DNA of 21,939 bases, taken from IMG/VR virus record IMGVR_UViG_3300042863_000196, positions 1 to 21,939 of that record. One strand, written 5' to 3'. The DNA comes from a virus. The translations under genes were made by a program, and so were the position numbers. Position 1 is the first letter of the stretch; every line of letters begins with the position of its first letter. The notes under the pieces are model-generated. The model was not told the origin of the DNA and did not search any database. It saw only the letters and a program-made list of their open reading frames with translations. Of the stretch, positions 1-10,827 are shown piece after piece.

Positions 1-46
1 AGACATGTTTAGAACCTTTCATTAAGTAGCCCGACCTAGTGCCGAA

Positions 47-66
47 CATGAGAGAATTGTCTCATG
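47..66 (+). other. Perfect 7-bp hairpin
   Basis: CATGAGA (47-53) pairs with TCTCATG (60-66) around a 6-nt loop. It is the first clear element of the structured left-end region. There is no T-run after it, so it is not an intrinsic terminator. Confidence 0.6.
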
Positions 67-94
67 AATTAGGCAAGGAGTCAAGTACCCAAGC

Positions 95-111
95 CGTACG
101 ATTATCGTACG
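95..111 (+). other. Perfect 7-bp hairpin beside a short direct repeat
   Basis: CGTACGA (95-101) pairs with TCGTACG (105-111) around a 3-nt loop. It is followed by two copies of ACGCTCAG at 109-116 and 119-126 and by a 5-bp hairpin at 126-138. The dense packing of separate stems is what one expects of a folded RNA. Confidence 0.55.
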
Positions 112-555
112 CTCAGCCACGCTCAGGAGATAGTCTCCCAGCGCATATTCCCCCCCAACACAAACCCCAAAATTTCGGCGCGCTCGCCCGTAAACGGGCT
201 CGCGGTAGACCCTCGGCGGTACTTAAATCGCGGAGCGTTACTAAAACCCTCAAGCCCACAGGCAGGGCATAGCCCTCAGGCTACAAGCCAAAGACTTATT
301 CGTCTAAAGGCTCGAAAAGAAAAAGGCATCGAGTCGCTTGGGGCGACCCCAGTGCTTATTACTCCCGCTGGTCGTATATTACACTATCCCGTTACAATAT
401 TTTTCCAGTATTTACGGGGGAAATGTCCGTATTATACATATAAGTTAGTGAAGTACATCACATTTGCTAAATTACACCGTTCGAATTCCCGTTTTGAACG
501 GGTTAGTATATATAGACGAACGACTCCTACAGAGTGAGTCTATCTTAAATGTGAG

Positions 556-615
556 TGGGTGGCTGAGACAGCCGAAACGATAGTGTAGGCTGGCTTGATG
601 CCAGCCACGAACCCA
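556..615 (+). other. Candidate three-way RNA junction before terL
   Basis: TGGGT (556-560) can pair with ACCCA (611-615), closing two internal hairpins: GGCTG/CAGCC at 561-573 with a 3-nt loop, and GGCTGGC/GCCAGCC at 588-606 with a 5-nt loop. The result is a compact three-way junction. An alternative fold pairs 559-564 with 603-608, so switching between folds is possible. It lacks the T-loop and acceptor features of a tRNA. Confidence 0.45.
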
Positions 616-626
616 GGGGTTAGCGA

Positions 627-644
627 GGCTCGCACAGGCGAGCC
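627..644 (+). other. GC-rich 7-bp hairpin just upstream of the terL leader
   Basis: GGCTCGC (627-633) pairs perfectly with GCGAGCC (638-644) around an ACAG loop. The following bases are GAGCGATAAAGGGG, with no T-run, so it is not a Rho-independent terminator. It could form the 3' edge of the structured RNA, or protect or space the terL leader that follows. Confidence 0.55.
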
Positions 645-680
645 GAGCGATAAAGGGGAGTTTTATACAAGGGGTTTAAT

Positions 681-687
681 GGAGGGG
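681..687 (+). promoter_or_regulatory. Ribosome-binding site of terL
   Basis: GGAGGGG lies five bases before the ATG at 693 and fixes this start. Together with the lack of coding signal upstream, it marks 693 as the first gene of the module. Confidence 0.8.
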
Positions 688-692
688 TTATA

Positions 693-2567
693 ATGGCTGC
701 TAAAGGCGGTAAAGAGCACCACAATGTAGTCGCTCTCAGAGAGGCAAAGGCAAAAGTTTTAGATTTTGTCCGCCAAGGTTTAGATATTACAGATGCATTA
801 GCAAGGGCTGAACGTAAGCCAGATGTCATGAAGGACTGGCGCAAAGACCCAGCCTTTATGAGAGAACTTGAGAAGGCCCGATCAGAGGGCGAAAAGACTT
901 TAAGTATAGTTACAGGGGATGCCAAGTTCAAAATTGGCTTTGAGGAGTTCAGCCGTGAGTTTCTTGACTCGCCGATTTTCCCACATCACAGGTCTTGGAT
1001 TGATGTGCTCGAATCAAGGGAACCTTCCTACCTTCACCCGTCGATGGTCTATGACGCTGCATCTAAAAAGCGTCTGCTTATCAACGTCCCACCCGAGCAT
1101 GCGAAGTCGACGGTCATCACGGTCAACTACTGTGTGTACCGAATCGCCATGGACCCCAACATTAAGATCACCATCGTTTCCAAGACTCAGGAACGTGCTA
1201 AGGAATATCTTTACTCGATCAAGCAACGGCTAAGCCACGAGCGCTGGTCGAAGTTACAGGCAGTCTATGGATCTGCAGGGGGTTGGAAAGAGGATGCGGA
1301 TACTTGGAAGGCTGATCGCATTTACCTGTCTCGTGATTCTACCGAAAAGGATCCGACGGTGCAAGCGCTCGGAATTGGTGGCCAGATTACTGGCGCCCGT
1401 TCCAACCTCATCATCCTGGACGACGTTGTTACGACTTCAAACGCGCATGAGTGGGAGAAGCAACTCCTCTGGCTCCAGCGAGATGTAGTCACCCGTCTGG
1501 GTGATAACGGTAAGTTGCTGATCGTAGGCACACGTATCGCCGCTAACGACCTCTACCGAGAGATTAGAAACCCTGAGCACTGGACTGGTGGCAAGTCACC
1601 GTTCACCTACCTTTCAATGCCAGCAGTACTTGAGTTCGCAGATAAGCCAGAGAACTGGGTTACCCTGTGGCCTAAGGCACAGATCCCTTGGGAGGGCTCA
1701 GATGAAGACATTCTTCCAGATGAAGATGGGCTCTACCCTAAGTGGGACGGCGGCGCACTGTTCCGCAGGCGTAGCGAAGTCAGCCCTAGCGCCTGGGCGC
1801 TGGTATATCAGCAGCAAGACGTACAAGAAGACTCAATCTTTGCCCCTGTCTGTGTACAAGGTTCGATCAATAGGATGCGAAAGCGTGGCCCCCTAAAGGC
1901 TGGTAGCGCTGGACATCCTAGTGAAAAGGGATCTTGGTACACCATCATGGGTCTAGACCCTGCTATGACTGGTAATACAGCAGCAGTGGTTATGACAGTA
2001 GATCGTTACAGTCGCAAAAGGTACATCCTTGACGTAGAAAATATGTTTGATCCTACTCCTCAGAAGATCCAGAAGTTAATTCAGGACTGGGTTGAGAAGT
2101 ACAGACCACAGGAATTAAGAATTGAAACTAACGCTCATCAGAAAGCATACGCTTTAGATGATGATCTACGTCAGTATCTAGCCTCTACAGGAGTTCGCTT
2201 CTCGAGTCAGTTCACTGGTAAGAACAAATGGGATACACAGTTTGGTGTAGCCGCTATGTCAGGTCTCTTTGGGACCATGCGTGGTACTTCTTTTAATAAC
2301 GACAACCTCATGGAACTTCCAGCAGTGGAAGGTTCGGAGGGCATTAAGGCTCTGATCCAGCAATTAATAACCTGGGAGCCTAATACTAAAGGCAAGACCG
2401 ACTGTGTGATGGCGCTCTGGTTCTGTGAACTACGTGCCAAAGAAGTTATCTCAATCGGTAGAACCAATCAGAGCCATATACCCAACAAGTGGGCAACTCG
2501 TAAACAACAACAAGAACGCTATGTACTCAATGTCAATGACTATGAGTTTGGTGAGGAACAGGAATAA
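693..2567 (+). CDS. terL: Terminase large subunit with N-terminal HTH extension
   Basis: This is the ATPase-nuclease motor that pumps DNA into the prohead and cuts the concatemer. Of the 624 residues, 133-140 (PPEHAKST) are the Walker A variant, 239-244 (LIILDD) the Walker B strand, and 275-281 (LLIVGTR) the coupling motif. The RNase H-like nuclease shows its acidic residues at D422 (MGLDPAMTG), E478 (LRIETN) and D570 (KTDCVMALW). Residues of about 20-62 form a predicted helix-turn-helix followed by W49 and DPAF, a pattern seen in small terminase subunits, and no separate small-subunit gene is visible nearby. The length is at the long end for the family, consistent with that extension. The stop codon lies two bases before the portal start, the usual packaging order. 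Assignment is by motifs and context. Confidence 0.96.
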   Translation: MAAKGGKEHHNVVALREAKAKVLDFVRQGLDITDALARAERKPDVMKDWRKDPAFMRELEKARSEGEKTLSIVTGDAKFKIGFEEFSREFLDSPIFPHHRSWIDVLESREPSYLHPSMVYDAASKKRLLINVPPEHAKSTVITVNYCVYRIAMDPNIKITIVSKTQERAKEYLYSIKQRLSHERWSKLQAVYGSAGGWKEDADTWKADRIYLSRDSTEKDPTVQALGIGGQITGARSNLIILDDVVTTSNAHEWEKQLLWLQRDVVTRLGDNGKLLIVGTRIAANDLYREIRNPEHWTGGKSPFTYLSMPAVLEFADKPENWVTLWPKAQIPWEGSDEDILPDEDGLYPKWDGGALFRRRSEVSPSAWALVYQQQDVQEDSIFAPVCVQGSINRMRKRGPLKAGSAGHPSEKGSWYTIMGLDPAMTGNTAAVVMTVDRYSRKRYILDVENMFDPTPQKIQKLIQDWVEKYRPQELRIETNAHQKAYALDDDLRQYLASTGVRFSSQFTGKNKWDTQFGVAAMSGLFGTMRGTSFNNDNLMELPAVEGSEGIKALIQQLITWEPNTKGKTDCVMALWFCELRAKEVISIGRTNQSHIPNKWATRKQQQERYVLNVNDYEFGEEQE

Positions 2568-2569
2568 CA

Positions 2570-4312
2570 ATGGCATTAGATATTGAAAGAATTGCTAAAC
2601 GCGTTGAGAACCTCAAGCGTTTGCATTCTGATCGTGACTATCGCATGTCACAAATTCAGGCTGTTCGCAAGGGTAACATCGTTGGTATCTTCCCTGATAT
2701 GTTTCCTGAGGGACTTCCATACTCAATGGTTGCTAACTTTATTGACGTTGCAGCCCGCGATCTTGCAGAAGTTCTAGCCCCACTCCCATCATTTAACTGT
2801 GGCGCAGTCAAAGTTACAGATGCCAAGGCTCGTAAGTTTGCTGATACACGCAGCATGATTGCCAACAACTATGTTGCTCATTCACGACTTCAGTCACAAA
2901 TGTACTGGGGAGCAGACTGGTACTTCTCATACGGATTCTTGCCAATCCACATAGAGCCAGATTTTGAGGGTGGCATTCCTTTCATCCGTGTTGAAGATCC
3001 AATGGGATCTTACCCAGAGTTTGATCGTTTTGGACGTTGCGTAGCATACGCTAAGCGTTACAAGAAGACATCTAATGAACTTGCACATGAGTTCCCAGAG
3101 TTTGCCAACAATATCCTTGGTCGCTTTGGTGAGAACACAGGCAATGACATTGAACTTATCAAGTACATGGATAAAGACCAGACAGTTCTCTATCTACCAA
3201 ACAATAATAATTTAATTCTTAGCACCGTAAAGAATCCTCTTGGCAAGATGACTGTGCGTATTGCACGTCGTCCTGGCATTGATGATGAACCACGCGGTCA
3301 ATTTGATGACGTAATCTACGTACAAATGGCTCGTGCACGTTTCGCTAACTTGGCAATGGAAGCGGCTGAAAAGTCAATCCAAGCGCCACTTGTTGTACCT
3401 AGCGATGTATTAGACCTGCCTATGGGTCCTGATGCAGTTATCCGTACAACTCAACCACAAGGTGTCGGGCGTGTCCGTTTGGACATTCCCGCTGCTGCCT
3501 TTCAGGAGCAATCAGCACTCCAATCAGAATTACGACTTGGTGCTCGATATCCTGAGGGTAGAACTGGAAACATTGACGCAAGTATTATTACTGGTCAAGG
3601 TGTCCAGGCGCTACTTGGTGCTTTCGACTCTCAGATTAAGGCTGGTCAAACCATCCTTGCTGAGGTGTTCGAGGATGTCATTCAATTAGCGTTTGAGATG
3701 GATGAAGTTCTTTTCGACAAGGAAAAGAGTGTTAGAGGAACAGCACAGGGTACGCCGTACGAGTTAAAGTACATGCCAAGCAAGGACATAAAAGGCGACA
3801 CTTCTATTGAAGTTCGTTATGGCTTGATGGCTGGATTAGACCCTTCACGTGCATTGATCTTCTCACTACAAGCACTAGGTGCAGACCTTGTATCCAAAGA
3901 CTTTATTCGTCGAGAACTACCATGGAATGTTAATACAACCATGGAAGAAACACGCATTACTGTAGAAAAAATGCAAGAGAATCTCACTCAGGCCATTACA
4001 GCAACTGCACAAGCAATTCCTGCAATGGCAGCGCAAGGAGCAGATCCTTCACCGCTTATTAAGAATATTGCTGATGTGATTGATCGCATCACTCGGGGAG
4101 AAAACATACAGGATGCTGCGTTGGCAGTGTTCACGCCGCCACAGCAGCCTGAACAACCAGCCCAGCCAGAGATGGCTCCACCAGGCACACAAGGCCCAGT
4201 TGAGCAGGCTCCCCAATCCCCAGCCGCTCCTGGAGAACCTTCTGGTGGAGTCCCTCAACAAGCAGGACCACCAGCAGATTTAGCAACCATGTTAGCAGGA
4301 CTAGGAGGATAA
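2570..4312 (+). CDS. Portal protein
   Basis: This protein would form the dodecameric ring at one capsid vertex through which DNA enters and leaves and to which terminase and connector bind. At 580 residues it is of usual size for this role. It directly follows terL, two bases after its stop. The N-terminal half is a mixed alpha/beta body rich in aromatic residues; about residues 325-380 (ELRLGARYPEGRTGN, then GVQALLGAFDSQIKAGQ) resemble the stem and clip helices of podovirus-type portals. The last 60 residues are rich in proline, glutamine and glycine and are probably disordered, perhaps a contact for the giant protein or scaffold. An AGGAGG near its 3' end serves the next gene. Function is assigned from position, size and overall character rather than from a catalytic motif. 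Confidence 0.88.
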   Translation: MALDIERIAKRVENLKRLHSDRDYRMSQIQAVRKGNIVGIFPDMFPEGLPYSMVANFIDVAARDLAEVLAPLPSFNCGAVKVTDAKARKFADTRSMIANNYVAHSRLQSQMYWGADWYFSYGFLPIHIEPDFEGGIPFIRVEDPMGSYPEFDRFGRCVAYAKRYKKTSNELAHEFPEFANNILGRFGENTGNDIELIKYMDKDQTVLYLPNNNNLILSTVKNPLGKMTVRIARRPGIDDEPRGQFDDVIYVQMARARFANLAMEAAEKSIQAPLVVPSDVLDLPMGPDAVIRTTQPQGVGRVRLDIPAAAFQEQSALQSELRLGARYPEGRTGNIDASIITGQGVQALLGAFDSQIKAGQTILAEVFEDVIQLAFEMDEVLFDKEKSVRGTAQGTPYELKYMPSKDIKGDTSIEVRYGLMAGLDPSRALIFSLQALGADLVSKDFIRRELPWNVNTTMEETRITVEKMQENLTQAITATAQAIPAMAAQGADPSPLIKNIADVIDRITRGENIQDAALAVFTPPQQPEQPAQPEMAPPGTQGPVEQAPQSPAAPGEPSGGVPQQAGPPADLATMLAGLGG

Positions 4313-4567: not shown

Positions 4568-4996
4568 ATGTCGAATGTTGCACCTATATCAGGAGTCGGA
4601 AAGAACGCTAAGCGTACTGACCGTGGCATGGTCCAGAAGATTCAGCGTAACGCTAAGATTCAAAATGCATCAGGCGGAGCATACGGACAACGTGCGGAGA
4701 TGCAGAGTATTGCATCAGGAGCACCAACAGCACCTACAGCAAGTTCTGTATCAGCAGGCGCACCTGCGCCAGCAATGCCATCTGTTCCAACAGTAAACGC
4801 ATTTGCTCCAGGCACACAGGGAGCACCTCTTTCAAGCGGTGCAAAAGGTGGACCTGGTGTTGACGATACAGCACAGCAAACACCAGTTGATTCTTTTAAT
4901 CCTGATTCTATGTTTATCCGTGCATTGTATGCCGCTAACCCAGAGTCTCGCCAGTTAATGATGATGGTAGAAGCATATAACGAACTGGAATCTTAA
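4568..4996 (+). CDS. Ala/Pro/Gly-rich low-complexity protein, unknown function
   Basis: This 142-residue protein is unfamiliar. Residues of about 10-40 are basic (KNAKRTDRGMVQKIQRNAK). The middle, about 55-100, is a low-complexity linker of alanine, proline, serine and glycine. The last 30 residues (DSMFIRALYAANPESRQLM and onward) look like an amphipathic helix. This looks like a flexible tether between two short binding segments, fitting a chaperone or adaptor for loading the giant protein encoded next; that role is inferred. Its TAA overlaps the ATG of the next gene in TAATG, so translation is probably coupled. Confidence 0.82.
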   Translation: MSNVAPISGVGKNAKRTDRGMVQKIQRNAKIQNASGGAYGQRAEMQSIASGAPTAPTASSVSAGAPAPAMPSVPTVNAFAPGTQGAPLSSGAKGGPGVDDTAQQTPVDSFNPDSMFIRALYAANPESRQLMMMVEAYNELES

Positions 4997-7900
4997 TGGC
5001 TGATAATCTACAAGCCATTCTCGAGGCTAGAAAAAACTCGTATCAGACAATGATGCGTTATTCAATGAACTCATTGTCTCCAGATGCACTAACTAATTTT
5101 AATACAATCACCCAAAAATATCCTGGGATGAGCAACGATCTAGTTGTATCTATGGTTCGTCAGGGATTGACTGCAGATACTCCTGGAATCAATAAGATAA
5201 CAACCATTGACGGTATTGCTGCACTCAAAGCAGACGCATTTAACGTAGATAAAATCAAAAAGAGCGTAGAACCTGATCGTGGATTCCTTGGAACCATCCA
5301 GGCTGGACTCAAAGAAGGCATCTACGATCCATTTAAGGGTTTAACTCGTGGTCTTTTTGCTACTCTTCGTTTACCTTACGATGCGCTAACACTTACAACA
5401 CGAAATGCACTAGCGCTTTACCGCGGAGAAGACATTTCTGCAGGAGAAATGCTTCAAGGTGCTTGGTCCGAAGCAACTGCTTTTGGTTCTTTAATAAGAA
5501 ATTTTTCAAATCAAGGTTCTGGATTCTTTGTTGGACCAAAAACCAAAGCAGGAAAAGCACAGATTAAAGCCATGGGTAAGTACGGTCAGATTAATGGGCA
5601 ATCTTACACCATTGGCCGCCACATTTTCAATGGCGTTGGAATGAATCCAGAAGAAAATGCATATAAGGTTTTATCTGGAATTGTAGATGCTACGCTTAAC
5701 GTAGGTTTAGATCCATCTATCTGGTTTGGACCTGGCGCTGTAGGTAAGATTCTTACACAAGGTAAAAAAGCAACAACTTTAGCAAGCGATGTCATGCAGT
5801 ACAACAAGATTGGAATGACTCAACTTGAAAGAGAAGCAGCAGAACTTCTTGAAAAAGAAGGCAAAATTGTAACAGATAAGATTACAAAAAAGATTTCTTC
5901 ACCTTACAAGCGTGTTGCAAAAGACGTTAAGAAAAAAGAAGATGAAATTATTGCTATTGAAAAGAAGATCGTTGATACGCAAATCAGAACTGCTCGTAAA
6001 CTATTAAACTTTGAAACTCTTAATGCTGCTCGATGGACATCACTGCCAGCAGATGATGTTTCTAAGCAGGCTCTTTCTGATAAAAGTATTTCTGAGTGGT
6101 TTGTAGCCAACCCTAAGACTCAAACAGGCGAACTGTCTGATGCAATGTCTTTGTTGTCTGCAGATATGAAAAATACTGGTGGATTCTTTGATGGGTATAT
6201 TCTTCTTGATGAGATTCCACAATATGGCAAGGTTAGCGCTGGAGCGCATTACCTAGACGAATACGCAGTCACAGCAAATGACGCAGATAAATTTAATTTA
6301 CTTGATCTGGCTGACGACTTCACAAAGGCTGACGAAGCAACACGCGCAGCAGAAGGTCTTCGCCGTGCTCAATTAGCAGATCGTTTAGATGCACTAGGCA
6401 AGAATGCAGCAGACCCAGAGTTTAGAGTATACAACGAACTAGCAACTAGACTTCGTGACGAAGCAGCAGCACTTGATGGATTCACAGGATCTTTGTTTGT
6501 TGTTGGCGATGAATTAGCAGCAGGAAAAAGCCTTGGCGCTCTTCTTGGTGAGATTTCTGCACTAAAGAACCCAGCAGTAATGTCTAAGGTCTCAGAACTT
6601 GTAGAAGACATCTGGAAGGTTGATGGATTCACCAACATTCGCTCCATCTATGGTGGAACTGGTGGAGTTGCAATTACAAATACAGCGCGAATTGCAGCCA
6701 CACGTGCTGAAATTGGTATCGCAGCATCAGAGTTTGCAGATCCTACCAACCTAGGACCCAACGTTCTTAGACTGCTACAGTCACTTAAAAAGCCTCAAGA
6801 TGAATTGGCTGTCCGACAGAATGAATTTGATGATCTATTAAATAGACAATTAGACCTTGAAGATAAAGAAAAGTGGTTTAGCCTCCTACGCGAGAAGGCA
6901 AACGGAGATCCAGATATCCTAAGAGAGTTGATTGCAGATCCTAAGGCAAAAGGTCTTAAAGATTTGCTTAAACTAGAAGCAGAACTTGCAGAGAAATCAG
7001 TTTACAGAGAATCTATTCTAGCAAGTGCTGGACTTACAGATGGCTTTATGGGCAATGTTCTTGATACACCGAATATGACCGAAGCGGTTAAATTTATGCT
7101 TGGGCGTCAGTTTAAGGTAGTTGCTGAGATTGTTGCTGGCGAAAAAGACGTAGTTAAACTTCGCAACCTATTTAGACGTAAATTAGACGATAGAGTTATT
7201 AAAGAACTTTCTTTGGCTACGACAGTAGATGACGTTTATAGAATCTTGTTAAATCAAGTAAACAGCGGTGCAGATCTACTTGCAGTTAAAAAGGCTGTTG
7301 GAACTGGTCTTAAAATTGCAGCCAACCCAGTTGCTCGCTTAGTTCCAGGTGTGAACCTCAACGCTATTCGTATGTCTGAGAAGGTTAATCAAGCATTCGG
7401 TCGTTTCTATGTTCGATCTACAGCACTTAATCTTAACGATCTCACAGCGTTAAATACTGGCGTTGAAGACTGGATGAGTTCTATTCTTACCGTATCTCGA
7501 TTTGGTGGAATGATTAGCAAAGCAACACGAGAAAGAGTTATTGCTGACACACAGAGAGCAATCTTTGCTGCTGAAACTCCCGCTGAACGCGCTGCTGCAG
7601 TCCATAATGGTGTCGGTAAGTTGCTAGATGAAGTTGCTAGCGCAATTGGTGCTGACAAAGAAGGCATTGCTAAACTTAAAGAGAGCATTAAAATCTCTGG
7701 TAGAGATGATGTTCTTGTATCAAATTACTCTCTTGAACAAGCACTTGCTAACGGTGGTGGCGGTGTTATTGAAGCAGGCGGAAAGACAGTTCGCTTAACA
7801 AAGGGAATGCTTGAAAGTCAGTTGGTTAGAGATGTACTCAATCTCCCAGATTCACGTGCAGTAACCAAGTCCCTTATGGATTTTAAGACTAACGTTCCAT

Positions 7901-10827
7901 TGTATGGCAAAGCACGATCAACTAGAGTTCTTCTTGAAGAAGCAGGAGATCTCTGGCGTACAGCGCAGTTGGTGGGTCGTTTTGCCTATATCATGCGTAA
8001 CGTAGGAGAAATGCAAATGCGCCAGTTCCTATCTGGCCATAACAGTTTATTTAACAACCCTATTGGTTTCATATCTATGATGATTGCCAACCCAGAAGGT
8101 AACTGGGCTCAAAGAGCGTTATCAAGCAAGAGCAAACTTGGCGTAAACGCTATGGGTCAGTTCTTTAAGTCTACAGATGCAGAGGTTCAGTTCTCTGAAT
8201 CTATTATTTCTTATCAGGCTATAACACGTCGTGGTAAAGATTCGACTGCAGACTATGGTGCTCCTGGAAGAAAGCCAACAAGTATCTTTAGAACATACAA
8301 TGTTGTAGATTCTACAAGCGAAGACTACTTACAGGGTCTTGCCTGGACAATTAATAACTTCTCATCAGACAAGTTTATTCCAGATGTAATCCGCGTAATG
8401 CAAGCGGGAACACCAGAAGCACAAGTTCAGTATGTTGATGATCTAATTGATACATTCGACGAACCAGGTAATAAGTTAAGAGAGTTCCTATCAGCAATCT
8501 ACAACGACAATGATGGAATGAACGAATTACTTCTTATTAATCCTTTCAAAGAAACTGGACCTGGTGTTGTAAAAGCAAACATCAATAAAGACAACCTCCT
8601 TACTTACCTATTTGATGCAAAGCAACCTAACACAGTTATTGGACAAATTGATCTTCTTGCTGGTCAAGGAGCACAAAGAGATCTAGTTCTTTCTATCCTA
8701 CGTGATGGAGAGGCGGCTGTTACAGTGGGTGGCAAGTTAGTTACCATAAGACCACCATACGCTCGAAGAGGTTTGACATCAGAGCAAGTCATTGCTGCGG
8801 AAAAGAACTTTGAAAAGCAAGTTGCTGCAATCTTTCAGCCAGCGCAGATGGTTGGTTCACGTGTACGCGTGTACAACGAGAAGGTAGTCTTTGAAGGCAC
8901 TACGTCGGCAGCAAAGCAATTTACAGAATGGTTCTTTGGTCTAGCGGCAAGAATGGAAAGTAAATTTAACTTTGGGCCTGAGTTTCAGGCTAGTTACTGG
9001 GACTTTGCAGCCTCACATGCAGATATGCTCAGCACGGATGATCTGATTACCTTGCGTAACAATGCTAACAAGGCTTTTGCACCTACATCTGAGGGTGGAA
9101 AAAAGATTATTGGTAGAGTTCCAGCACCATTACGCGTTATCAATAATACGCTCAAGCAGCGACTAAAAAACCCTTCTTACGTCCACAAAGGTGGAGCAAC
9201 GCTAACAACAGTCGACTCTCTCGCAGCACAGCAGGCATCTAAGCATGTAGAAGGCTTGTTCTATAACGCTGCTAAGCAGAAACAGTGGGCTAACGCAGCC
9301 CGTCTAGTAGCACCGTTTGCTCAGGCTCACTACAACACCATCGGCAAGTGGGGAGAACTTATGTTCTCTAACCCAGTTCCTATAATTAAGTTTGCTAAAG
9401 CGTTTGACGCTCTTACAAAAGAAGGCTCAAACGTAATCTACGATATTACTGGTATGACCTATGATGATAACCAAGGATTCCTTTACAAAGATGAAATGTC
9501 TGAGGATCTAAAGTTTAAGATGCCTCTTGTTGGTAATTTTCTTGGTGCTCTTGCTGGTAGAAACATTAATGCAAAAGATGCTCTGCAAATAACTGCACCA
9601 GTACAGTCTTTGAACCTTGCATTTGGTTCTGTTAGCCCTATATCTCCTGGTATGGGACCTGCTATGGTTGCTGCGTATACGCTAAGTGGACGCGATAATG
9701 CATTTGGTCCAGTAGATGATCTTCTTAGAGATATTGTTACACCATTTGGTGAGCCTAAAACTGCAACAGATATTATATTTCCAGCGTGGGCAAAGAAAAT
9801 TACTAACGCTTTCTTTGCTGATAATGCAGCAACACAGCGTGGAGTTAAAGACTTTGCTTCGTATTTAGCGTCTACTGGTGACTATGGTGATAACCCATTT
9901 GCTAGTGATGAAGCAAGAAATCAATTATTTAGCGACGCAGAAAAAATGGCTAAGTGGGCAAATGTTGTGGGTGCTCTATTCCAGAGTATCTCTCCAGCAA
10001 CTCCTATACAAGAAGTTTTGCTGAGTATTAAGAACCCTAATAATAAGCAAAACTTTATGACTATGGCTATGCTTTATAAAGAGTGGGATACACTCAAGAA
10101 CCGTCATCCTGGAGATAATGCAACAGCAGCGGCTAAGTTTGCTGAGAAGTTTGGTCATAAGAACATCCTAGTTGCTATCAGCAACACCACACCAGGAACC
10201 TCTGGTACTGCAGATGCATGGACATTCTTGAATAACAACCCAGATGCTGTGAGCAAGTATGCCACTCCATCTGGAGATGTTATTCCTTACTTCTTCCCTG
10301 GCGGAGAGTATGCAATTAAGTATACTAACTGGCAGAAAAAGATGGGTGCTCGTCGTCAGATGTCCACCGCAGAGATAGCACAAGAGGCAGAAGGCATGGT
10401 TTACGCCATGCTCAAGGGCCAACTTGCTGAGCAACAGATCGCTGGTCGTTACACTGATTTCTGGTATAACGAGCAGATTGCTATCCTTAACAAGCAGTTT
10501 GGTGGCGCTAAGCCAGTAGATGCAATTGTAACTGGTATCCAGGACGAGAAGATAGCAACAGTTGGTCGGGCAATTGAAGACCCAATATTCCAATCATCTT
10601 CCATTTACGAAGAAACGGTTACATTCTACAAGCAGTTTGATGAGTTTAGAAAAGTTCTTAATGATCTAAAGGTTTCAAACTATGCAGAACTATCATCTAA
10701 GGGCGGAGTTCCAACACTTATGCGTGATGAACTTGTTGCTTTAGGAGAAACATTAATGACTAACAACCCTGAATTCTCCCGTATGTACTACGGTGTATTT
10801 GCAGGTATATTAAGAGAGGCTAAATAA
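4996..10827 (+). CDS. Giant 1943-residue virion protein (probable internal or ejected protein)
   Basis: This uninterrupted gene fills a quarter of the window. I recognise no enzymatic motif: no transglycosylase, peptidase or RNA-polymerase signature is evident. Visible features are an N-terminal helical segment (residues 1-60), a lysine/glutamate-rich probable coiled coil at about 292-338, a second at about 599-635, a glycine run at about 919 (NGGGG), and a hydrophobic glycine/proline-rich stretch at about 1510-1565 that could insert in a membrane, though no clear transmembrane helix stands out. Very large proteins in phage head-tail modules are often packaged in the head and ejected with the DNA, as T7 gp16 or the N4 virion polymerase. 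That, or a tape-measure-like role, are the main options. It overlaps both neighbours through TAATG, so it is co-translated with them. Confidence 0.9.
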   Translation: MADNLQAILEARKNSYQTMMRYSMNSLSPDALTNFNTITQKYPGMSNDLVVSMVRQGLTADTPGINKITTIDGIAALKADAFNVDKIKKSVEPDRGFLGTIQAGLKEGIYDPFKGLTRGLFATLRLPYDALTLTTRNALALYRGEDISAGEMLQGAWSEATAFGSLIRNFSNQGSGFFVGPKTKAGKAQIKAMGKYGQINGQSYTIGRHIFNGVGMNPEENAYKVLSGIVDATLNVGLDPSIWFGPGAVGKILTQGKKATTLASDVMQYNKIGMTQLEREAAELLEKEGKIVTDKITKKISSPYKRVAKDVKKKEDEIIAIEKKIVDTQIRTARKLLNFETLNAARWTSLPADDVSKQALSDKSISEWFVANPKTQTGELSDAMSLLSADMKNTGGFFDGYILLDEIPQYGKVSAGAHYLDEYAVTANDADKFNLLDLADDFTKADEATRAAEGLRRAQLADRLDALGKNAADPEFRVYNELATRLRDEAAALDGFTGSLFVVGDELAAGKSLGALLGEISALKNPAVMSKVSELVEDIWKVDGFTNIRSIYGGTGGVAITNTARIAATRAEIGIAASEFADPTNLGPNVLRLLQSLKKPQDELAVRQNEFDDLLNRQLDLEDKEKWFSLLREKANGDPDILRELIADPKAKGLKDLLKLEAELAEKSVYRESILASAGLTDGFMGNVLDTPNMTEAVKFMLGRQFKVVAEIVAGEKDVVKLRNLFRRKLDDRVIKELSLATTVDDVYRILLNQVNSGADLLAVKKAVGTGLKIAANPVARLVPGVNLNAIRMSEKVNQAFGRFYVRSTALNLNDLTALNTGVEDWMSSILTVSRFGGMISKATRERVIADTQRAIFAAETPAERAAAVHNGVGKLLDEVASAIGADKEGIAKLKESIKISGRDDVLVSNYSLEQALANGGGGVIEAGGKTVRLTKGMLESQLVRDVLNLPDSRAVTKSLMDFKTNVPLYGKARSTRVLLEEAGDLWRTAQLVGRFAYIMRNVGEMQMRQFLSGHNSLFNNPIGFISMMIANPEGNWAQRALSSKSKLGVNAMGQFFKSTDAEVQFSESIISYQAITRRGKDSTADYGAPGRKPTSIFRTYNVVDSTSEDYLQGLAWTINNFSSDKFIPDVIRVMQAGTPEAQVQYVDDLIDTFDEPGNKLREFLSAIYNDNDGMNELLLINPFKETGPGVVKANINKDNLLTYLFDAKQPNTVIGQIDLLAGQGAQRDLVLSILRDGEAAVTVGGKLVTIRPPYARRGLTSEQVIAAEKNFEKQVAAIFQPAQMVGSRVRVYNEKVVFEGTTSAAKQFTEWFFGLAARMESKFNFGPEFQASYWDFAASHADMLSTDDLITLRNNANKAFAPTSEGGKKIIGRVPAPLRVINNTLKQRLKNPSYVHKGGATLTTVDSLAAQQASKHVEGLFYNAAKQKQWANAARLVAPFAQAHYNTIGKWGELMFSNPVPIIKFAKAFDALTKEGSNVIYDITGMTYDDNQGFLYKDEMSEDLKFKMPLVGNFLGALAGRNINAKDALQITAPVQSLNLAFGSVSPISPGMGPAMVAAYTLSGRDNAFGPVDDLLRDIVTPFGEPKTATDIIFPAWAKKITNAFFADNAATQRGVKDFASYLASTGDYGDNPFASDEARNQLFSDAEKMAKWANVVGALFQSISPATPIQEVLLSIKNPNNKQNFMTMAMLYKEWDTLKNRHPGDNATAAAKFAEKFGHKNILVAISNTTPGTSGTADAWTFLNNNPDAVSKYATPSGDVIPYFFPGGEYAIKYTNWQKKMGARRQMSTAEIAQEAEGMVYAMLKGQLAEQQIAGRYTDFWYNEQIAILNKQFGGAKPVDAIVTGIQDEKIATVGRAIEDPIFQSSSIYEETVTFYKQFDEFRKVLNDLKVSNYAELSSKGGVPTLMRDELVALGETLMTNNPEFSRMYYGVFAGILREAK

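Follow-up and report, generated by a model that had tools for sequence, protein, structure and literature searches.

A conserved block of tandem G.A hairpins upstream of terL in the probable genome-end region of an uncultured freshwater phage family

The window analyzed here, an entire IMG/VR record of 21,939 bases classed as linear, begins with 692 bases that are dense in hairpins and precede the gene for the terminase large subunit (terL). Comparison with related contigs resolved this stretch into several parts: a promoter and operator that face left, a probable terminal repeat, a possible promoter for rightward transcription and, in front of terL, three hairpins (P6, P7, and P8) that form a block. 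It probably holds the genome end of a podovirus that is related to the Streptomyces Beephvirinae and carries direct terminal repeats, and P6–P8 are almost certainly selected to fold as a single strand, as judged from aligned sequences. As an explanation of the whole we favor, at a probability of roughly 0.4, a genome-end and control region in which P6–P8 would act as folded DNA in end processing or packaging. Phage genome-end and control regions are of a known kind; what appears to be new is the conserved hairpin block with its tandem G.A modules. The features are as follows (a slash in an edge motif marks the edge).

4–6, minus strand: start codon of a divergent leftward gene whose body lies outside the window (homologous ORF starts in L004, L066, and L069; aligned upstream ends)
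56–84, minus strand: sigma70-like leftward promoter TTGACT-N17-GACAAT, position conserved in relatives
95–111, either strand: operator-like perfect palindrome CGTACGATTATCGTACG; some relatives have different palindromes there
127–139, plus strand: left-edge motif GGAGATA/GTCTCC, predicted left genome end at G133 (conserved GCAGATA/GTCnCCC; contigs beginning at the same GTC; Beephvirinae genomes start GTCCC)
133–386, plus strand: inferred direct terminal repeat of about 254 bp (homology to Beephvirinae repeats; contig edges)
331–349, plus strand: hairpin P1, GTCGC..GCGAC, followed by conserved CCCCAGTGCTT (relatives' alignment)
356–377, plus strand: site of hairpin P2, 5–7 bp with a 3-nt loop in relatives (23 different perfect stems), degenerate in the window
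381–391, plus strand: right-edge motif ACACTA/TCCC, probable right end of the repeat (near-invariant TAnACTnTC in relatives; repeat edge at the homologous place in Beephvirinae)
391–417, plus strand: conserved AT-rich stretch AATATTTTTCCAGTATTTAC (relatives and Beephvirinae)
448–461, either strand: dyad P4, GTGA-N6-TCAC, a CRP-like site by analogy
478–500, plus strand: hairpin or dyad P5, CGTTCG/TGAACG (relatives' alignment)
493–513, plus strand: near-invariant motif TTTGAACGGGTTAGTATATAT with candidate –10 TAGTAT at 504–509 (relatives and Beephvirinae)
513–542, plus strand: hairpin P6 with a tandem G.A module (518–519 against 536–537), covarying
588–606, plus strand: hairpin P7, 7 bp, covarying
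622–650, plus strand: hairpin P8 with a tandem G.A module (625–626 against 645–646) and G-runs on its flanks (616–619 and 655–658), covarying
693–2567, plus strand: terL (phrog_38, E 1.5e-70; Terminase_6C)

A structured, non-coding region between divergent genes

The hairpin density of positions 1–692 that a sequence-only reading had pointed out is real. Perfect stems (loop 3–9) of 7 bp or longer numbered four, compared to a mean of 0.185 and a maximum of 2 in 200 dinucleotide shuffles, and those of 5 bp or longer numbered 13, compared to 3.33 (maximum 8). The minimum free energy of the plus strand was –245 kcal/mol (z = –6.8), and the minus strand reached z = –5.7. The four 7-bp stems do not form one structure; only 588–606 and 627–644 belong to the conserved structure, while 47–66 and 95–111 lie outside it and are operator-like or due to chance. 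Stem 47–66 was rejected as a conserved hairpin, as it overlaps the leftward promoter and is not kept in relatives.

Both small open frames (39–272 and 352–537) are interrupted by stops or frameshifts in relatives such as L006, L066, L003, L022, and L020; the region is therefore not coding, as the doubts raised earlier about these frames had anticipated. Neither a tRNA nor an Rfam family was matched in the window at gathering score, in line with the impression that no RNA family was visible, and at E values up to 10 the window and its relatives (including L055) gave chance matches only, with GOLLD and ROOL absent from the matches listed. Identity with either of these RNAs, to which the sequence-only reading had compared the region, was thus not upheld.

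Rightward of this region follow terL, the portal gene (2570–4312) and genes for a 1943-aa protein, a scaffold-like protein, the major capsid protein and tail-like proteins. In relatives with longer upstream sequence the leftward gene starts at the window's beginning, so that 7–692 represents the entire divergent intergenic region, and the same arrangement of leftward gene, intergenic region and terL is present in related contigs. The scan for TerL relatives gave at least 599 encoding stretches among the matches listed, from which 80 contigs were kept; a repeat of the scan returned mostly identical contigs. Within the region, 328–660 form a conserved core and 230–328 are hypervariable. As GTDB genomes contained no TerL or capsid relatives, they gave no link to a prophage or host. 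The nearest named phages are the Streptomyces Beephvirinae (TerL about 45% identical), of which Abafar was described as a podovirus (PMC11536984). Genes of the adjacent leftward operon code for an amidoligase-like product and for one weakly resembling glutamine amidotransferases (L066:1167–2624 and L066:286–1131, minus strand), perhaps a peptide- or surface-modifying pair.

Genome end, terminal repeat and control elements

Exact direct terminal repeats of 253–276 bp that begin with GTCCC were present in six of the seven Beephvirinae records examined; in the Abafar record the repeat is placed differently and measures 396 bp. The right edge of the repeat in six records, GAGTG/AGTCCC, lies 370–403 nt before terL, and the blocks around it follow the same order as in the window: GACCC..GTT, the edge, an AT-rich block ending in CATAAATAC, a GTGAC/GTCAC dyad and GGGTATATATATA. 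Manuel, FlowerPower, Immanuel3, and WRightOn share with the window this block order, hairpins before terL, and a gene-free stretch between divergent blocks directly upstream of terL. They differ in the low TerL identity, in a much longer left gap to the next gene and in P6–P8, which were not found in the Beephvirinae by a covariance model of these hairpins (R1).

In the window's own family the left-edge motif is conserved as GCAGATA/GTCnCCCAACACAAACC, the spacing between left-edge and right-edge motifs is 168–253 nt in 15 relatives, and the edge motifs lie at a distance from terL that matches the Beephvirinae type. Three independent contigs (L177, L039/L091, and L135) begin exactly at the left-edge GTC, as assembled contigs rather than read-level ends, and four (L003, L008, L030, and L046) begin at CACAAAC, ten bases after it. 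Homology and contig edges together thus place a terminal repeat probably at about 133–386. A cohesive-end site at 133 is a possible alternative, since two left-side contigs stop 6 and 15 nt past the left-edge GTC. Identical end bases were also observed in two near-complete contigs (123 and 127), resembling an assembly-graph overlap, and circular-graph contigs exist, which are compatible with several end types.

About 33 of 74 contigs (starts of L002–L081) have an end in the 700 nt that precede terL, a clustering beyond what one genome end explains; hypervariability or poor coverage of hairpins may be added causes. The motif C[AG]ACACAAAC (minus strand GTTTGTGTYG; window 156–165) occurs in four to six copies per genome in leftward intergenic regions (L375–L436), with tandem, iteron-like copies spaced 10–15 nt apart some 900 nt to the left of position 133 in the window. 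These copies could be origin iterons or stoperator-like sites.

The motif TGAACGGGTTAGTATATAT was found in one copy per locus, 141–215 nt before terL (641 nt in two of them), across about 150 partly overlapping terL loci. In the Beephvirinae the CRP-like dyad reads TGTGA-N6-TCACA, is present in two copies and lies upstream of the candidate rightward promoter; dyads of the P4 type suggest that a host activator of the CRP/FNR family is used.

Covariation and pairing in P6–P8

Covariation was assessed in an alignment (A1) of 52 non-redundant sequences anchored on P6–P8, the structure comprising 22 pairs in three hairpins. Paired combinations made up 97.9% of the cells, and 18 of the 22 pairs were doubly substituted. 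Doubly changed cells numbered 204, compared to 54.6 in shuffles, and none of 500 shuffles was as high. When pairing partners were slid, about 30% remained paired, a control biased towards the P6–P8 structure since this was drawn from the same sequences. The best eight of 6105 column pairs all belonged to the structure (E < 0.02) under a tree-aware null in which parsimony substitutions were re-placed on the tree in 300 simulations, a procedure of our own and not R-scape. The sequence-only reading had proposed covariation among aligned homologues as a check, and it is strong in these hairpins. A first MAFFT alignment of the full region gave a single significant pair with the P6–P8 pairs already top-ranked, because the variable hairpins were misaligned; anchoring on P6–P8 mended the signal. 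The covariance model R1 recovered further members, among them, weakly (20–29 bits), the clade with 63% TerL identity.

P6 and P8 each contain a tandem G.A internal loop whose GA/GA is invariant in all 52 sequences. The same two-strand loop is used in both in permuted form, as 5'-stem-GA-RC-G..A-GY-GA-stem in P6 and as 5'-A-GY-GA-stem-GA-RC-GA in P8, and the R:Y pair covaries in each. A similar arrangement was seen by eye around P7 in one subclade. Stem and loop lengths of P8 vary, with loops mostly of 3–9 nt. We found no description of this hairpin block in a limited literature search, nor is it in Rfam. A long-range helix CCCC(346–349):GGGG(616–619) suggested by RNAalifold involves invariant columns only and is not claimed. 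The G-runs that flank P8 are equal in length in 58 of 71 sequences (r = 0.79), and A1 columns 154 and 191, within these runs, covary without Watson-Crick pairing (E 0.023).

The pairs are unexpectedly strict. Among the 1120 cells of P6–P8, 1095 were Watson-Crick, 2 were G-U (probably misaligned), none was A-C and 23 were other combinations; the P2 stems gave 135 Watson-Crick pairs and neither G-U nor A-C. In comparison, G-U accounted for 34 of 414 pairs (8.2%) in 20 tRNAs of phage Manuel and for 356 of 2798 (12.7%) in terminator-like hairpins from all loci on hand (2383 Watson-Crick, 59 A-C), a set that includes unrelated contigs from short-pattern matches and in which many of the hairpins are perhaps not genuine terminators. 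Because the cells are not independent, we attach no P value to this contrast, large as it is. G-U at the frequency usual in structured RNA is thus missing from P6–P8, and its near-absence speaks against an ordinary RNA and leans towards folded single-stranded DNA.

Possible functions of the hairpin block

In the preferred reading the region would be laid out, from left to right, as leftward promoter and operator, repeat at about 133–386, AT-rich and activator-like stretch, P6–P8, and terL. Both edges of the repeat would be terminase cut sites; when concatemers are processed, one strand would become exposed at the end of the genome, P6–P8 could then fold as DNA, and in this form they may guide how the repeat is duplicated or how the terminase of the adjacent gene begins packaging. 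DNA hairpins are favored because G-U is lacking, also in P2 within the inferred repeat, and because the block lies by the genome end and terL. Against this, the three hairpins are not part of the repeat but sit between it and terL, where a leader RNA must exist if transcription starts upstream. We consider DNA and RNA evenly balanced as the folded molecule; given DNA, a role in end processing or packaging is fairly likely. Less likely than not is a narrower version, an array of hairpins next to the genome end that the packaging or end-replication machinery of this large freshwater podovirus family would read as folded single-stranded DNA, recognizing them by shape, with tandem G.A modules and with arms whose sequence is free while their pairing stays strictly Watson-Crick. 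We identified no protein that is known to recognize hairpins of this kind in DNA. Phages of the T7 type have a direct terminal repeat with signals by the terminase locus, and a hairpin-forming sequence was proposed in duplication of their repeat. The window resembles them in its probable repeat, terminase-side signals and hairpins, but differs in its conserved multi-hairpin block with tandem G.A.

The main rival, which we consider almost as probable as the preferred reading, is that P6–P8 form a structured, cis-acting 5' leader RNA of terL or the late operon, made from a promoter at about 480–515 and serving, for example, processive antitermination, control of terL translation or mRNA stability, while P1, P2, and the repeat would be separate DNA features. 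In its favor, the hairpins follow a candidate –10 (TAGTAT, or in L014-type sequences TATACT) and precede the terL start; TATA[ACG]T is retained by the Beephvirinae at the corresponding position; in L134, L190, and L106 the predicted +1 is where the arm of P6 starts; and covariation with tandem G.A internal loops is typical of RNA. However, G-U is virtually absent even in the A-U-rich P6, where its cost to an RNA would be small; the P6 arm overlaps the predicted start in the window itself, a conserved –35 is absent and promoter prediction gave none at about 480–515. The put RNA of HK022 consists of two hairpins and acts as an antiterminator leader in E. coli phages, a nascent RNA that lets RNA polymerase pass terminators in cis; as in the window, its hairpins precede a long phage operon at the 5' end, but this parallel leaves the intolerance of G-U unexplained. 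Double-stranded operator dyads bound by dimeric regulators with rapid divergence from phage to phage would account for the strict Watson-Crick symmetry, for palindrome 95–111 and dyad P4, which fit well, and for the near-constant 3-nt center of P2 (19 of 23 stems have a 3-nt loop). As an explanation of some or all hairpins they are nevertheless improbable, since a dimer site would hardly tolerate the variable stem and loop lengths of P8 and since both P6 and P8 are broken by conserved G.A mismatches in all 52 sequences.

A single large trans-acting RNA of the GOLLD/ROOL type would suit the length, hairpin density, covariation and the phage and freshwater setting, and one of these large structured phage-associated RNAs was first known from lakes. 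We regard it as very improbable, as Rfam models remained unmatched up to an E value of 10, the region is broken up by a promoter, an operator and probable genome-end features, 230–328 is hypervariable, the suggested long-range helix depends on invariant columns, and covariation supports only short local hairpins. Of the dedicated long RNA proposed earlier, a non-coding, structured and covarying sequence conserved in many phages is borne out; one RNA that fills 650 bases is not supported. The pRNA of phi29 also links a structured nucleic acid with the packaging motor of a podovirus, but the window has no Rfam match and a different terminase and genome-end type. An N4-like virion RNA polymerase with DNA-hairpin promoters was considered for the short stem and loop of P2; the 1943-aa protein encoded after the portal (4996–10827) gave no match in Pfam, PHROGs or PDB sequences; this protein is probably an ejection protein, with a virion RNA polymerase as the other candidate. 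Also set aside was a rolling-circle single-strand origin, whose TAGCG-type box bears some resemblance; a literature search brought no support.

P6–P8 represent a structural element that is conserved next to the terminase gene in an abundant family of uncultured freshwater phages and has no Rfam entry, and they combine strict Watson-Crick covariation with invariant tandem G.A in an unusual way. They would be either a rare example of functional hairpins that covary as DNA where a phage genome ends, or a leader RNA exceptionally intolerant of wobble pairs. The analysis also predicts the genome ends and the terminal-repeat length of the family, and as the genome-end layout is common to the cultured Streptomyces relatives, that part can be tested in the laboratory.
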